Shown here in pieces: positions 254 to 6,244 of a stretch of DNA of 6,244 nucleotides; position 1 is the first letter of the stretch; each line of letters starts with the position of its first letter. The notes under the pieces were generated by a model. It was given only the letters and a program-made list of their open reading frames with translations, did not search any database and was not told the DNA's origin. The position numbers were made by a program, and so were the translations under genes. Source of the stretch: Candidatus Mcinerneyibacteriota bacterium (GTDB lineage: Bacteria; AUK180; JAQVHJ01); the NCBI GenBank assembly GCA_030630935.1, contig DAOVMD010000194.1, positions 1 through 6,244 on the forward strand. The letters run 5' to 3'.

Positions 254-1693
254 TTATATATTGAATTTTATATTATAGACGAGATCGGCGAGATACCCAA
301 CCTTTATTTTTCCTTTAATTTTTTCTTCATGTTCAGCGAATGCGCTGCCGGTTGTATATGCTTCAATTGCGCGGTTCAGGTTGATTTCTGAGCCGGGAAT
401 TGGATGTTTAACAGCGGATTCAATCCCATACTTTGGTCCGAAAGGCATGCAATCGGATCCAAAAGCCATAGGGATTTTCAGTTTTGAAATTTTCTTAATG
501 GGATTATTCTGTCTATAATAATATTCAGGGAGTCGTTGATCATACATTTCACCGGGTCCGGACCATTCCCCGACAAAATTGGGCTGCATCGATGCTATTA
601 GTCCCATTTCTTTAATCTTTTTGAGTTGTTTATCAGAGACCAGCTCGATATGTTCCAATCTATGGCGTAATTTTCTTGAATACCCCACCTTATTAAAAGT
701 ATCTAAAACTTGCTGAATCGCACGGTCACCAATTGCATGAATCATTAATTGCAGATTATTATTATTAACTTTTTCAATTAAGCTTTCCAGTTTTTTAGAA
801 TTATATATCAGTATTCCTTTTGTCTTTTTTCCAATATAATTCTTGTAGATTGCTGCAGTATAAGCACCGATTGAACCGTCTGTAAAAACTTTAATCCCTC
901 GAATCTTTAAGTATTCATTTCCAAAACCCGTAAGCATACCGGTTCCAATGATCTCATCCATCAAAGCTGCAACGAAATAGAGACTAACACGTAATTTGGG
1001 TTTATATTTTTGGAAATATTTTTGATATATATTAAAATATCCTTTATTAACCACATCAGTGATCGAAGTAACACCTTCTTTCTCTGCAAGTTTAATTGCT
1101 TTAGAAAGACCTAGCATTAATTCATCTTCTGATGGAGGAAAAATTCTATGAATATATAAAACAACATCTTCGAATAATTCTCCGGTATCACGTTTCACAA
1201 TCATGCAATCAGCAGGGATTTTCTTTAAAGCATTAGTATTTGCATAACCGCGATGCCCACATACACGTCGAAGAACCAGGGGATTATTTGGTGCAAGTTC
1301 ATCAAGTTTCTTTTTTGAAATTGGAGTTTTATTTGTCCACTTACTTTCATCATAACCTTCTCCAATCAATGGTTTTCCATTTTCGTATTTCTTAACTGCT
1401 TCACTAACTATATTATACAGGTCGTCTACAGATTCAGAAGCATCGAGATTAATCCGCAGCATCTTTAAACCCAGCCACATGAAATGAGTATGAGCATCAT
1501 TAAACCCTGGATATATCATATTCCCTTTTAGATTTATTGATTTCAAGGCGGGTAACTTCCCAATTTTCCCGGAAGGTAATATTTTTTTAATAATATTATT
1601 TTCAATTAAAATATCCGAAGCTTTATAACCGGGTTTGCCGAATATTTTACAATTTTTAATTAATAGATTCCCCGGATTAAAAATTCTTCTCAT
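254..1693 (-). CDS. YtcJ-type amidohydrolase, C-terminally short
   Basis: This metal-dependent hydrolase belongs to the amidohydrolase superfamily, YtcJ/NfdA-like branch; the substrate is unknown. Numbered from the ATG, the metal motif DAHTH has H68 and H70. K268 in KVFTDGS is the likely bridging lysine. H319 in IHAIGDRA, H348 in LEH and D414 in FGSD complete the metal and catalytic set, and CGHRGYANTNAL (around 146-156) is the usual substrate-side motif. There is no signal peptide. I chose the ATG at 1693; an in-frame TTG at 1696 would add one residue. The gene starts seven bases after the WYL stop without a clear Shine-Dalgarno sequence, so translation may be coupled. The protein ends about ten residues after ADLV (469-472). 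Relatives usually continue 25-30 residues to finish the small beta-sandwich domain, so the end looks truncated, although all catalytic residues are present. Confidence 0.88.
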   Translation of the reverse strand: MRRIFNPGNLLIKNCKIFGKPGYKASDILIENNIIKKILPSGKIGKLPALKSINLKGNMIYPGFNDAHTHFMWLGLKMLRINLDASESVDDLYNIVSEAVKKYENGKPLIGEGYDESKWTNKTPISKKKLDELAPNNPLVLRRVCGHRGYANTNALKKIPADCMIVKRDTGELFEDVVLYIHRIFPPSEDELMLGLSKAIKLAEKEGVTSITDVVNKGYFNIYQKYFQKYKPKLRVSLYFVAALMDEIIGTGMLTGFGNEYLKIRGIKVFTDGSIGAYTAAIYKNYIGKKTKGILIYNSKKLESLIEKVNNNNLQLMIHAIGDRAIQQVLDTFNKVGYSRKLRHRLEHIELVSDKQLKKIKEMGLIASMQPNFVGEWSGPGEMYDQRLPEYYYRQNNPIKKISKLKIPMAFGSDCMPFGPKYGIESAVKHPIPGSEINLNRAIEAYTTGSAFAEHEEKIKGKIKVGYLADLVYNIKFNI

Positions 1694-1700
1694 CAAATTT

Positions 1701-2768
1701 CTAAACCCAAAATCGCGGTTTTTTCCTATTAATAAATTTCTTATGAGAAACTACAATCTTTCCAATTCTATCCAATCTGAATGTTCTAAAATCACGTCTT
1801 AGATGACAATACCCCAACAAGTATGCATTATCAGCCCGAAAAATTAATTCATACGGATCCAGTTTTCTAATTGTTCTTTCCTGTGTCCATGGAGAATAAT
1901 ATTCAATTTCAATAACCTTTTTTTCATCAAGTGCTTTTTTAATTTCACTTGGGATATCAAGATGTTTCTTAATACCGAAATAGAAATTTCTATCCTGGAA
2001 ATTTAAAAGTGCTTCTAAGTTATTTATACCTGCAGCTTTAAATTCAGAAATTAACTTTATAAATATCTGGTGGAGGATAATACAATTATTAAGTGAGCTA
2101 TATGGCGGGACAACTTCTAAGCCCATTGTCTTAGTAAACTTAGTAAATGAAATTGAGCTATGTCCCGGTCCAGGATTCAAACGGCGCCATAATGTAATTA
2201 TATCGATTAGAATTGTATTTGTAAATTTGAACTTATTATTCAGTTGTTTAAATATAAAATCAAAAAGAAAAGCTAAGCTGAATCCTATTACAATCTCACC
2301 TGATACAAAGTGTTCCATGATTGGTTTAAAATATTCCAGTGTCTTCTTTGCCGACTTTATTTTGTCTGCAGATTCAAATACATTTTGCAGAAGTATTGGA
2401 AATTCGTTATCTAATTTAACTATCTTCCTTGTTTTTGAAAGGATAGTATCCCCTTTTACTTTAATCATGGAGAATTCACATAATCTTGCACCCTGGTCAT
2501 AGTTAATTCCTGTAGTCAAAGCATCTATAATTGTAAATTGAAGTTCTTCAAGGGGAAGAAACATATATTTATCGATATTACAAACTGAAAGATTCAATTG
2601 TTCATTCAGAACAAGATTAAGTTTCAAATCACGGATATCTCTATTCTCTAATAAAATATCACCGAGATATTCACCGGAAGAGGATTGTTCTGCAAGGGCA
2701 GAATCAAGGATTTTATTTGAAATATAAGATTTATCTAATAAGAGATTTCCGAATAATTTCCAAGTCAT
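1701..2768 (-). CDS. WYL-domain protein with GspE/MshEN-like N-terminus and degenerate DnaQ-exonuclease-like middle domain
   Basis: Three parts can be seen in 355 residues. Residues 5-66 follow the helical repeat of the type II secretion ATPase N-domain (FGNLLLDKSYIS, then YLGDILLE, then a final LNEQLNL). The arginine of the RLGxxL motif that binds c-di-GMP in MshEN domains is tyrosine here. Residues 78-243 look like a DEDDh 3'-5' exonuclease: FTIIDALTTG (78-87) matches the ExoI block, GFSLAFLFDFI (162-172) the ExoII block, and LWRRLNPG (193-200) the helix before ExoIII. Only the first aspartate (D82) of the catalytic set is kept. Residues 275-345 form a WYL domain with YLLGYCHLRR (316-325) and RTFRLDRIG (328-336); the W of the WYL triad is alanine (A315). 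WYL domains sense nucleotides or nucleic acids in regulators. I see no helix-turn-helix, so direct DNA-binding regulation is uncertain. The gene starts 33 bases after mdh without a recognisable Shine-Dalgarno sequence. The WYL call is firm, the other two are by pattern. Confidence 0.8.
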   Translation of the reverse strand: MTWKLFGNLLLDKSYISNKILDSALAEQSSSGEYLGDILLENRDIRDLKLNLVLNEQLNLSVCNIDKYMFLPLEELQFTIIDALTTGINYDQGARLCEFSMIKVKGDTILSKTRKIVKLDNEFPILLQNVFESADKIKSAKKTLEYFKPIMEHFVSGEIVIGFSLAFLFDFIFKQLNNKFKFTNTILIDIITLWRRLNPGPGHSSISFTKFTKTMGLEVVPPYSSLNNCIILHQIFIKLISEFKAAGINNLEALLNFQDRNFYFGIKKHLDIPSEIKKALDEKKVIEIEYYSPWTQERTIRKLDPYELIFRADNAYLLGYCHLRRDFRTFRLDRIGKIVVSHKKFINRKKPRFWV

Positions 2769-2801: not shown

Positions 2802-3719
2802 TTATAGCAATTCAATCTGTTTTTTATAAATATCAGCTGATGCTTGTAATGATTTTAGGCTATTATCATCGAGTTCAATTTCAAATATTTTCTCAATACC
2901 ATTTCTTCCAAGCACAACTGGAATTCCTATAAAAACACCATTGATTCCATATTGACCATCAAGATAAACAGAAGTTGGGAGTACCCGTTTTCTATTATTA
3001 AGAATTGACTCCATCATCTCAACAGTTGCCTGTGCCGGGGCATAAAAAGCCGATCCGGTTTTTAGAAGTGCAACAATCTCTGCACCGCCTTTCCTTGCTC
3101 TCTGGACCATTGCGTCAATTTTATCCTTATCTATCAGTTTTGAGATAGGGATTCCTGATACTGTAGCATATTCCATTAACGGCACCATTGAATCACCATG
3201 GCCGCCAAGCATAACTAACGAGATATCTTCAATAGAAACACCAAGTTCTTCAGCAATAAAGAATTTCAATCTTGCTGAATCAAGAACTCCCGCTTGACCC
3301 ATTACACGTTCTTTTGGAAAACCGGTTATTTTCCAAACATGATAAGACATTACATCAACAGGATTTGTTACCATAATTACGATTGCGTTAGGGGCATATT
3401 TCTTTATATTCTCTGCGATTCCTTTAATTATATCTGCATTCTTTTTCTGAAGATCTTCTCTTGACATTCCGGGTTTTCTTGCAAGCCCTGCAGTAATCGC
3501 AATCAAATCGGAACCTTTTATATCTTCAATATTATTTGTTCCGGTAACGATTGAATCAAAATTCTCAATGGGAGAAGATTCATTCATATCAAGGCCTTTA
3601 CCCTGGGGCATACCATCAACAATATCGTATAAAATTATTTTCCCAAGTCCTTTTGAAGCTGCAATATAGGCAATTGTTGCACCAACATTTCCTGCACCGA
3701 TTACACTTACCTTATTCAT
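2802..3719 (-). CDS. mdh: Malate dehydrogenase, NAD-dependent, LDH-like type
   Basis: The enzyme interconverts malate and oxaloacetate with NAD(H) in the cytoplasm, in the citric acid cycle or its reductive branch. The Rossmann motif GAGNVG is at 8-13, and D32 at the end of the second strand favours NAD over NADP. The substrate loop ARKPGMSRED (80-89) supplies R81 and R87. R81 sits at the position that is glutamine in lactate dehydrogenases, so malate rather than lactate is the expected substrate. TNPVD (118-122) carries N119, LDSAR (146-150) carries D147 and R150, and GGHGDS (172-177) carries the catalytic H174. Its 305 residues are close to the family norm and no key residue is missing. It begins 22 bases after the LarA-like stop, so the two genes probably share a transcript. 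The linkage suggests 2-hydroxyacid or C4-dicarboxylate metabolism, which is inference. Confidence 0.97.
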   Translation of the reverse strand: MNKVSVIGAGNVGATIAYIAASKGLGKIILYDIVDGMPQGKGLDMNESSPIENFDSIVTGTNNIEDIKGSDLIAITAGLARKPGMSREDLQKKNADIIKGIAENIKKYAPNAIVIMVTNPVDVMSYHVWKITGFPKERVMGQAGVLDSARLKFFIAEELGVSIEDISLVMLGGHGDSMVPLMEYATVSGIPISKLIDKDKIDAMVQRARKGGAEIVALLKTGSAFYAPAQATVEMMESILNNRKRVLPTSVYLDGQYGINGVFIGIPVVLGRNGIEKIFEIELDDNSLKSLQASADIYKKQIELL

Positions 3720-3741: not shown

Positions 3742-5025
3742 TTAAAATTTCAAATCCTTGATAACACTAAACACCTTTTTCTTTTCAATTACCGGGATTG
3801 TAATACTGCCATGCATTAAGAATAGGATTTTCACATCATCTCCCTTCTCTTTAATTGCGGAGTCAAAAGCATCTTGAATAGAGTCATAAGGTTTGATAAA
3901 GATAGATTCCAAATCATCAGGGTTCAGGTTTGTCAGAGCCCAGATCTGGGATGTTTGAAGAATCCCAATTATTTTTGCTGATTTATGATAACCTAATTTA
4001 TACTCTTCCTGAATCTTCATCATTGCCTCTTCAGGAGAGAAAGCATCCATTAAAAGGTCAAAAAATGCACGCTTCCCAATTCCATTCCGGCATTCGGAGA
4101 TAAAAATCAAAATTCCATTTTCCTTCAATACATGTTTTACATTATCAACTGCAACCTGGGATTGGTATAGGTCAGTATCATAAGGATATGGAACGACTGT
4201 AACAACCACATCATATTTTGACTTGATAGAAACACAATAAATCTCCCTTGCAGAATTTATTGCTGCTAAAAATGAAGCGTTAAGCTCACCTGTTTTTACA
4301 TCATAAATATTTCTCTGGCTATCCTGTACAATTTGAATTGAAAAGATATTATCAGTTTTCAATGCATTAACTGCATCAAGTGCATCCGTAAATACAGGAT
4401 TGTTTTCGGTTTCCAAAACAATTGCGTTATCATCAATTGCAAGTTTTCTATTTGCTAATATAGATTCATAGCCTGCAATACCGGGGAATATTAACCCCCT
4501 GCCGCCAGTAAAGCCGGCATAATAATGTGGGGCAACTGAACCAATAACAATTATTCTATCTGCTTCAATTGCAAGTTTATTTAAATAGATAGGTGTTTTA
4601 TGACGGGTCTTGCCAAGAAGAATAAGGTCTTCTTTTTTTCTGGAATCATGAACAAAAACTTGTCCGCCAAAATGCATATAATTCTTTCCGAATATTAAGT
4701 TGCATTCCTGCTCAGTTGGAGCACGACTAACATCAGTTGCAATAAGAAATTTCACGGGGAAATCCACAATAATGTTTTTAATCGCGTCTAATATCTTTGC
4801 GGTTGGGGTTGATCGAGTACCATCATTTACAATTATCAGGATATTCTTTCCGCCCTTTAGAAAATCTTTAAAGGATCGAGATTCAATAGGGTTATTCAAT
4901 CCGTCAATAATTACTTTTTCTTCATTTTTCTTTTTTACTTTTACCGGATATATGATCTCACCAATATTCTTTTGTTCGAGATCAATCGGCAATTCAGCTT
5001 GTCCAAATGGTATCTTGATCCTCAT
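3742..5025 (-). CDS. LarA-superfamily protein (lactate racemase homologue) with altered nickel-pincer active site
   Basis: At 427 residues it matches the usual length of about 425 for LarA, the nickel-dependent racemase of 2-hydroxyacids, and the family motifs occur in order. DGTR at 68-71 holds the D72 and R75 counterparts (Lactobacillus plantarum numbering). A PHYYAGFTGG stretch at 166-175 holds H167, the counterpart of catalytic H174. Y287 and Q288 match Y294 and Q295, and HK at 347-348 is also typical. Several defining residues are replaced. H108 is S100 (ATDVSR where ATGxHR is expected). The cofactor-bound lysine K184 is G177 (GGRG for GGRK). The nickel ligand H200 is R193 (ANRK for ANHS). 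K298 is V291. Covalent cofactor attachment and normal nickel binding therefore look impossible, and racemase activity should not be assumed. It may be a ligand-binding or otherwise repurposed member. The symbol larA is withheld for this reason. It sits between an iron-sulfur subunit and malate dehydrogenase, 22 bases before the latter. No cofactor genes (larB, larC, larE) are in the window. Confidence 0.9.
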   Translation of the reverse strand: MRIKIPFGQAELPIDLEQKNIGEIIYPVKVKKKNEEKVIIDGLNNPIESRSFKDFLKGGKNILIIVNDGTRSTPTAKILDAIKNIIVDFPVKFLIATDVSRAPTEQECNLIFGKNYMHFGGQVFVHDSRKKEDLILLGKTRHKTPIYLNKLAIEADRIIVIGSVAPHYYAGFTGGRGLIFPGIAGYESILANRKLAIDDNAIVLETENNPVFTDALDAVNALKTDNIFSIQIVQDSQRNIYDVKTGELNASFLAAINSAREIYCVSIKSKYDVVVTVVPYPYDTDLYQSQVAVDNVKHVLKENGILIFISECRNGIGKRAFFDLLMDAFSPEEAMMKIQEEYKLGYHKSAKIIGILQTSQIWALTNLNPDDLESIFIKPYDSIQDAFDSAIKEKGDDVKILFLMHGSITIPVIEKKKVFSVIKDLKF

Positions 5026-5030
5026 TTATT

Positions 5031-5036
5031 CTCCTT
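5031..5036 (-). promoter_or_regulatory. Ribosome binding site of the LarA-like gene
   Basis: The minus strand reads AAGGAG, then AATAA, then ATG at 5025. The site lies in the 53-base gap after the FrhB-like stop and fixes the start. Confidence 0.85.
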
Positions 5037-5078
5037 CCACATATTAATTTCTTCCCTTTAGTAAATTCATTCCCCTTC

Positions 5079-6197
5079 CTACTCTCCCAGATCCTTTAAC
5101 TCATCTTCCCTGAATGTACTAATCGGAATTTCATCTTCAAAAGATCGACCTGCTTCATAATCAAATACAGCTTGGGCATTTTTTGCAGTTAATAAGAAGA
5201 TACTTCCCACGTCAATTCCAACCGGGCAAGCTTGACTGCACATTCCGCAAGCTACACAAGACGTGATCATATGATTCATTCTTCCTAATTGAAATAAAAG
5301 AGTATCGGTCGGCATCTTCAAGACTCCCTGTCGATCTGCCCAGGAAAGCAGCTGCTCAGATTCATAATCAAATGTACTTGATTCAAAGAAACATTCCTGA
5401 CAAATACATATCGGGCATTGAGACATACAATTATGACAGTTTATACATTTCGAGAAAAACTTAGTCAGGTTTTCAACTCCTGAAACTTCTTCCTGAAAAT
5501 TTGTTAAGAAGTTTTCTTTAATTTCGATTTTATTATTAATAATTGCTTCAATATTTTTCTGTCTATTATCTGTGTTGTAGTCTTCCAATCCTGAAATACT
5601 ATTTAATAATTCCTCGCCTTTTTCGGAATAAGCAGTGAGCACAATCGCACCGGAGTCATTTCCGAAGATCTCAATACCAATATCAGAAGTTGAAGTAGGA
5701 ATCATGTTATTGCAGAGTTTGCATGCTTGTCTAATGTCTTCGATTTGAGTTCCTTCTTTAAAAGAGTTCAATAGCTTCTGTTCAAGTTCAGTTTTTTTAT
5801 TTTCCTTTGAATAATATTCAATATCAAATGTTCCGTTACAATCTACCGTAAGTAAATAAATATTTTCAAGATTAATTTGTTTTAATTTTACCATCTCTAC
5901 AACAGCACGCATTTCACAAGGTTTTAATATTACACCAACCTTCTCCTCTGATTGTGTGAACTTCGTTAATTTCGCTAAAAGAGTAGCGGTGTTAACCGGT
6001 AAAATTGGAGCGAATGCAACTGTATTAGCTAAGCTTTCTTCAGTTTTATGAATAACTTGATAAATAAAGTTTTTCTCAGGCGTACGTTTAGGAATAATAA
6101 TAGAATCAAGAATTTTAGTTTTTATTAATCCTTTAATTATCTCTTCAACAGCTGTATTTTGCTCTTTTGACGAGTTTAATAATTTTGAGATAGCCAT
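5079..6197 (-). CDS. FrhB/FdhB-family iron-sulfur oxidoreductase subunit (coenzyme F420 hydrogenase/dehydrogenase beta-like)
   Basis: This 372-residue protein is cytoplasmic, with no signal peptide or membrane segment. The first half matches the FrhB/FdhB type: a KPCEMRA motif at 92-98, then VDCNGTF at 118-124 and a CKLC pair (C159, C162). The second half is a ferredoxin-like dicluster region. One site is C251/C254/C257/C261 followed by proline, with extra cysteines C264, C266 and C269. The second is C314/C317/C320/C324 followed by PVGI. In the known family such subunits carry electrons between a flavin or F420 site and partner hydrogenases, formate dehydrogenases or heterodisulfide-reductase-like complexes. 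Many bacterial members occur in organisms without F420, so the electron donor cannot be named here. The gene is first of five in the visible operon, and an Hdr-like or hydrogenase partner may lie upstream outside the window. The family is fairly secure; the exact reaction is not known. Confidence 0.85.
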   Translation of the reverse strand: MAISKLLNSSKEQNTAVEEIIKGLIKTKILDSIIIPKRTPEKNFIYQVIHKTEESLANTVAFAPILPVNTATLLAKLTKFTQSEEKVGVILKPCEMRAVVEMVKLKQINLENIYLLTVDCNGTFDIEYYSKENKKTELEQKLLNSFKEGTQIEDIRQACKLCNNMIPTSTSDIGIEIFGNDSGAIVLTAYSEKGEELLNSISGLEDYNTDNRQKNIEAIINNKIEIKENFLTNFQEEVSGVENLTKFFSKCINCHNCMSQCPICICQECFFESSTFDYESEQLLSWADRQGVLKMPTDTLLFQLGRMNHMITSCVACGMCSQACPVGIDVGSIFLLTAKNAQAVFDYEAGRSFEDEIPISTFREDELKDLGE

Positions 6198-6204
6198 TTA
6201 ATTT

Positions 6205-6211
6205 CTCCTTT
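6205..6211 (-). promoter_or_regulatory. Ribosome binding site of the FrhB-like gene
   Basis: The minus strand reads AAAGGAG, then seven bases, then ATG at 6197. This is a strong Shine-Dalgarno sequence at good spacing, and it supports that start codon. Confidence 0.85.
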
Positions 6212-6217
6212 AATTAG

Positions 6218-6244
6218 CTAAATATTCCATAATTTTTCAAAATC
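6218..6244 (-). CDS. Possible 3' end of an upstream gene, cut by the window edge
   Basis: Two minus-strand frames are open at the right edge. One reads DFEKLWNI and stops at TAG (6220-6218). The other reads ILKNYGIFS and stops at TAA (6216-6214). Either would end just before the ribosome binding site of the next gene, as expected inside an operon. Eight or nine codons are too few to identify a protein or to choose between the frames, and the stretch could also be untranslated leader. Confidence 0.25.
   Translation of the reverse strand, partial: DFEKLWNI

Follow-up and report, generated by a model that had tools for sequence, protein, structure and literature searches.

Few enzyme cofactors are as unusual as the nickel-pincer nucleotide (NPN) that LarA enzymes use, and a locus of Candidatus Mcinerneyibacteriota raises the question of what becomes of such a protein when the residues that hold the cofactor are replaced and the gene stays intact. 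The window analyzed here, 6,244 nucleotides long, is the whole of contig C418 of genome G000. It encodes a LarA-family protein with the features listed below (equivalent residues of Lactiplantibacillus plantarum LarA in parentheses unless Mar2 is named).

3742–5025, minus strand: LarA-family open reading frame of 427 amino acids, NPN site lost
5031–5038, minus strand: Shine-Dalgarno sequence GGAAGGAG, 5 nt ahead of the larA ATG
4813–4824, minus strand: DGTR motif, kept, with Asp68 (D72) and Arg71 (R75)
4726–4728, minus strand: Ser100 (AGT) in place of the catalytic His108, which 83/83 relatives have
4525–4527, minus strand: His167 (H174), kept
4495–4497, minus strand: Gly177 (GGG) at the position of Lys184, the covalent NPN holder; K in 83/83 relatives
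4447–4449, minus strand: Arg193 (AGA) in place of the nickel ligand His200, which 83/83 relatives have
4156–4167, minus strand: Tyr287 and Gln288 (Y294, Q295) and Gln290 (equivalent of Mar2 Q293), kept
4153–4155, minus strand: Val291 (GTT) in place of the catalytic Lys298, which 82/83 relatives have (Q in the other)
3982–3993, minus strand: malate-racemase motif G345-Y-H347-K348 (Mar2 G348, H350, K351), kept

By descent, the window protein is a member of the LarA superfamily. Over its full length it matches both Pfam domains above their curated cut-offs, Lar_N (PF09861, 3.5e-44; 150.9 bits versus 23.3) and LarA_C (PF21113, 2e-13; 50.9 bits versus 25), and the relevant blocks align without gaps to Mar2, 2yjg, and L. 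plantarum LarA (for example, PHYYAGFTGGRGLIFPGIAGYESILANRK). This alignment bears out the initial annotation, which had reported, from the sequence alone, the replacement of H108 by S, K184 by G, H200 by R, and K298 by V and the retention of D72, R75, H174, Y294, and Q295; the bases it gave are correct, and the exact residues are S100, G177, R193, and V291. In LarA, K184 is the covalent NPN anchor, H200 is a nickel ligand, H108 and H174 form the acid/base pair, and K298 is catalytic (PMC7583248, PMC12611868). Among the features of an NPN-dependent LarA, namely, the K184 lysine, the H200 ligand, and the H108/H174 pair, only H174 is present. The marks of a pseudogene, a broken frame or lost translation signals, were not found in the window gene: as also noted initially, the frame is full length and preceded by a ribosome binding site, and the alignment with the nearest relative contains two gap columns.

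The protein is predicted to fold. An AlphaFold2 (AF2) model (pLDDT 89.2, pTM 0.87) showed structural similarity to 2yjg (VIA Z = 44), L. plantarum LarA (5huq; VIA Z = 43.4), and Mar2 (VIA Z = 41); its VIA Z scores to LarA structures spanned 40–44. Apart from the C-terminal tail, low confidence is confined to the loop of the NPN lysine (residues 171–180; pLDDT of 54 versus 84 in a canonical control modeled with the same alignment members) and to helix 11, which is shortened from residues 286–299 in the control to 290–296; the short helix 175–179 is gone. Part of the local drop in pLDDT may stem from the greater distance of the window protein to the alignment. These features bear on the idea of a new nickel-free enzyme, in which the remodeled pocket (Ser, Gly, Arg, and Val alongside the retained D72, R75, H174, Y294, and Q295) would bind another ligand or a pyridine nucleotide and catalyze another reaction. 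The retained D72, R75, and one acid/base histidine, the potential of Arg at the H200 position to bind an anion, and the change of the lost codons at two or three positions are consistent with such an enzyme, but a single sequence defines no new conserved catalytic set and AF2 gives a low-confidence loop rather than a rebuilt one, so that we consider this possibility improbable.

To place the loss, we compiled 83 relatives of the subfamily (80 loci recovered with an alignment query and 3 homologs from a genome search); a search of 386 genomes yielded 14 further homologs. H108, K184, and H200 are present in all 83 relatives and K298 in 82, and all four are canonical in 14/14 of the further homologs. 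The nearest relative, from a genome of the same bacterial family and another genus (G001), is 60% identical to the window LarA over its full length, sits in the same operon, is its sister in the tree (SH-aLRT 100), and is canonical at all nine positions. Considering that this nearest relative is fully canonical, the loss is recent and limited to a single lineage. A clade conserving S, G, R, and V, which the initial annotation had suggested looking for, was sought and rejected, as no such member was found among the 83 relatives, the 14 further homologs, or seven genomes of the phylum; the window protein is a singleton. The annotation had also suggested looking for a second, canonical larA, and none was found in G000, an 80% complete MAG. 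Among distant family members, a divergent LarA (L054 2201–3490; 40% identity) carries R75K and K298Q with H108, H174, K184, and H200 intact, and a distant homolog (L010, genome G004) carries Q295H and K298R; the latter genome is 95% complete and lacks larB, larC, and larE hits over the cut-off.

Could the window protein still use NPN, dispensing with the covalent lysine and recruiting another nickel ligand? The retained D72, R75, and H174 would fit, but the protein has neither the covalent anchor nor the nickel ligand, keeps a single acid/base histidine out of two, and lacks the catalytic lysine, and this appears extremely improbable. The failure to find larB, larC, or larE in G000 points the same way weakly. 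None of the three scored over the cut-off in G000 (80% complete), in G001, or in another five genomes from the phylum. Of 20 genomes that encode a canonical subfamily LarA, 9, chromosome records among them, have no larC, and 8 of these 9 have no larB either. The absence of these genes, a search for which was proposed with the initial annotation, was rejected as proof of cofactor loss, as many canonical-LarA genomes lack larC and sometimes larB. Three Thermoplasmatales/Euryarchaeota chromosomes (L104, L125, L134) encode a canonical subfamily LarA and neither LarC nor LarB over the cut-off.

Malate is the putative substrate of this LarA subfamily, well supported by context. The best NCBIfam match of both the window protein and its G001 sister is the LarAH6 malate racemase (NF052593), with 322.5 and 386.2 bits, respectively, both below the equivalog cut-off of 500. 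The malate-racemase (MAR) signature consists of H/Q and K at the positions of W358 and T359 (PMC11770544), and the Mar2 residues behind the G-x-H-K motif have been described (PMC7583248, PMC11770544). The GHK signature of malate racemases (LarAH5/6, MAR) is present here as H347-K348, and 83/83 relatives share these two residues. The relatives adjoin genes for GlcD/GlcF in 37–38 of 76 loci and for malate dehydrogenase (MDH) in 9 of 76. A Chloroflexota cluster has the order (MDH or GlcD-GlcF)-LarA-fumarase alpha-HdrC-HdrB-tfrB-like-tfrA-like-fumarase beta, and in other relatives a malic enzyme gene is adjacent to that of LarA. MDH and GlcDF alternate at one place beside LarA in Chloroflexota (L069, L095, L123). 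In seven loci (L065, L070, L072, L075, L097, L106, L109), a canonical larA is immediately preceded by two tandem MDH-like genes; three of these loci (L097, L106, and L109) have GGAK instead of the conserved GGRK motif.

The surroundings of the window gene are as follows.

5079–6197, minus strand: FrhB/FdhB-like protein (4Fe-4S dicluster domain) whose Fe-S cysteines are all conserved with G001
6186–6244, strand not applicable: 59 bp shared exactly with the end of contig C59, which also belongs to G000
2802–3719, minus strand: NAD malate dehydrogenase (TIGR01763, 449.8 bits versus a cut-off of 351.85), at the glcD-glcF place of G001
1701–2768, minus strand: MshEN-like/degenerate DnaQ-like/WYL protein, syntenic with G001
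254–1696, minus strand: Amidohydro_3 amidohydrolase, syntenic with G001

The iron-sulfur protein that the initial annotation had placed next door is thus real and retains its cysteines; a new role for the window LarA, or a partnership with this protein, is possible. Contig C59 carries hdrC, hdrB, hdrA, an Fe-S tfrB-like gene, a tfrA-like flavoprotein gene, and flpD, with products 80–86% identical to those of G001. The 59-bp overlap joins it to the upstream end of the window, an adjacency in the assembly graph rather than on a long read, from which we deduce the operon order hdrCBA-tfrBA-flpD-frhB-larA-mdh-WYL-amidohydrolase. The G001 operon (L053 3223–16954) has the order hdrCBA-tfrB/tfrA-like-flpD-frhB-larA-glcD-glcF-WYL-amidohydrolase and is possibly an Hdr-linked D-2-hydroxyacid (malate) oxidation system. 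Elsewhere in G000 (L158, contig C109), a second FlpD/HdrA-like cluster includes two more FrhB-type Fe-S proteins. The WYL protein has an MshEN-like N-terminus, and the DxE motif of its DnaQ-like exonuclease region is degenerate (DALTTG; DILTTG in G001).

The same contigs allow an assembly chimera or sequencing error to be weighed. The altered gene is known from a single genome, the 80% complete MAG, and the window gene products are 56–61% identical to those of G001 compared to 80–86% for the Hdr genes of C59. However, gene order is that of G001, the overlap joins the window to the Hdr operon within the same bin, and the frame is intact. The four changed codons are mostly two or three nucleotides away from His or Lys codons (at least two for AGA to His, three for GTT to Lys), so that sequencing error is no credible cause. 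An artifact of either kind therefore seems very improbable.

The two operons differ between larA and the WYL gene, where G001 encodes glcD-glcF (D-2-hydroxyacid dehydrogenase) and the window encodes mdh. The window mdh is the sole match to the LDH/MDH family (PF02866) in G000, and the family is absent from the remaining six genomes examined in the phylum, of which five are 91–96% complete. Because PF02866 occurs in these seven genomes only at the window gene, the simplest reading is that mdh arrived later and took over precisely the site of glcDF, the polarity of this exchange being deduced. No ortholog of the G001 glcD was found in G000 (best match, 38%). This replacement within the operon, a likely cause of the changes in LarA, had escaped the initial annotation.

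The reading that we favor, at roughly even odds, is that a malate-racemase-type LarA lost the ability to hold NPN once mdh had replaced glcDF and that it survives without cofactor as a subunit that binds malate/dicarboxylates or acts as a scaffold. In an ancestral operon, arranged as in G001, the racemase probably turned L-malate into D-malate for GlcD/GlcF, whose electrons would feed the soluble Hdr/fumarate-reductase-like/FrhB system. In the window lineage, a newly acquired NAD-dependent L-malate dehydrogenase would have taken the place of glcD-glcF and, by yielding oxaloacetate directly, would have rendered racemization useless and possibly harmful, as D-malate would lead nowhere. Four residues would then have been lost, namely, the lysine that anchors NPN covalently, the histidine that binds nickel, one histidine of the acid/base pair, and the catalytic lysine, and the product retained as a cofactor-free malate/dicarboxylate-binding or scaffold subunit of an Hdr-FrhB assembly. 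It is by inference that we name malate as the original substrate, order the events and give them a direction, consider the activity lost, and assign a present role. The fuller version, in which the racemase turned into a cofactor-free malate-binding or scaffold subunit specifically of the soluble Hdr/fumarate-reductase-like/FrhB complex, following a switch from D-malate oxidation (racemase plus GlcDF) to NAD MDH, is put forward tentatively. Against a simple swap scenario stands the observation that in L065, L069, L075, L097, and L109, the region read encodes MDH next to a canonical LarA and contains no GlcD/GlcF; thus, gain of MDH alone does not make LarA useless.

The main and serious rival is early decay: the MDH swap removed the use of LarA, selection relaxed, the active site was affected first, and the frame happens to be unbroken so far. 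Since their split, the window LarA has evolved about 2.4–4.6 times faster than its G001 sister (branch lengths of 0.67 versus 0.26 with FastTree and 0.88 versus 0.19 with IQ-TREE); FrhB is also faster on the window branch (1.8-fold, with distant outgroups), and for the Hdr and Tfr genes the two branches have, on average, similar rates (ratios 0.56–1.94). Departures from the consensus in the window LarA affect 11/68 near-invariant, 18/91 conserved, and 26/139 moderately conserved columns, compared to 0/68, 3/91, and 14/139 in its sister (69 versus 30 overall, p = 1e-4). That near-invariant columns changed as often as variable ones is a sign of relaxed or redirected constraint and, with the long branch, speaks for decay. 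Besides the four replacements, seven near-invariant columns changed (P72S, G98D, G143K, E165A, F169Y, T188S, and L234Q), several of them adjoining active-site residues; given these and the elevated rate, the initial description of the gene as otherwise well kept was too strong. Its claim that metal and cofactor residues were lost selectively stands: the replacements are nonconservative and enriched at published pocket positions (5/12 pocket columns versus 6/56 other near-invariant columns, Fisher p = 0.019), and the G001 sister lost no pocket column.

Several observations nevertheless argue against decay. There is no stop or frameshift and there are only the two gap columns; the probability of no nonsense change among 39 neutral missense changes is about 0.11, indels uncounted. 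The substitutions are more conservative than neutral ones (mean BLOSUM of 0.34 versus −0.24, p = 0.008), and the malate motif is intact. Identity to G001 is similar to that of LarA (60%) for FrhB (58.6%), the WYL protein (56%), and the amidohydrolase (61%), and the LarA mismatches are as conservative as those in these three syntenic neighbors. The change in the window LarA is one of relaxed or redirected constraint, yet not of free drift. We therefore rate decay as rather unlikely and favor the cofactor-free role, given the intact frame, the ribosome binding site, the predicted fold, the malate motif, and conservation no worse than that of the neighbors.

The window and G001 form a matched pair, 60% identical in LarA and sharing the same operon, that could be used to ask when an NPN enzyme can be dispensed with, whether the LarA scaffold retains a function, and whether Hdr-type anaerobes metabolize malate via racemization and GlcDF. 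In the literature searched, no paper mentions malate racemase together with heterodisulfide reductase, and none mentions lactate racemase together with pseudoenzymes. Loss of the anchor, the ligand, one acid/base residue, and the catalytic lysine inside a canonical clade, here seen in one MAG, was not found in the published work examined. The closest known system is Mar2 of T. thermosaccharolyticum and its LarAH6 group (6d6z, 7s91), which shares with the window protein full-length homology, the fold, Q293, the G-x-H-K malate motif, and the equivalents of D72, R75, H174, Y294, and Q295. Of the five residues that Mar2 retains (NPN lysine, nickel-ligand histidine, two acid/base histidines, and catalytic lysine; PMC7583248), the window protein has lost four. 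L. plantarum LarA (5huq) resembles the window protein in the two-domain fold and some pocket residues but has H108, K184, H200, and K298, all replaced here. LarAH groups 14, 15, and 17 (LarA-Bw, LarA-Sp; 9q3j, 9q3k) likewise have an incomplete catalytic set; however, they lack the equivalent of H174, which the window protein keeps, and the two studied members of this type retain the NPN lysine and the nickel-ligand histidine (PMC12611868), both lost here. In LarAH groups 12, 13, and 16, catalytic and NPN-binding residues are reported not to be conserved, and their homology to LarA was doubted by the authors (Desguin 2020, PMC7583248). Whereas these published residue-poor homologs make up whole divergent groups, the window LarA falls within a canonical clade and shares 60% identity with a canonical ortholog, and its loss occurred on a single lineage beside a visible change of pathway.
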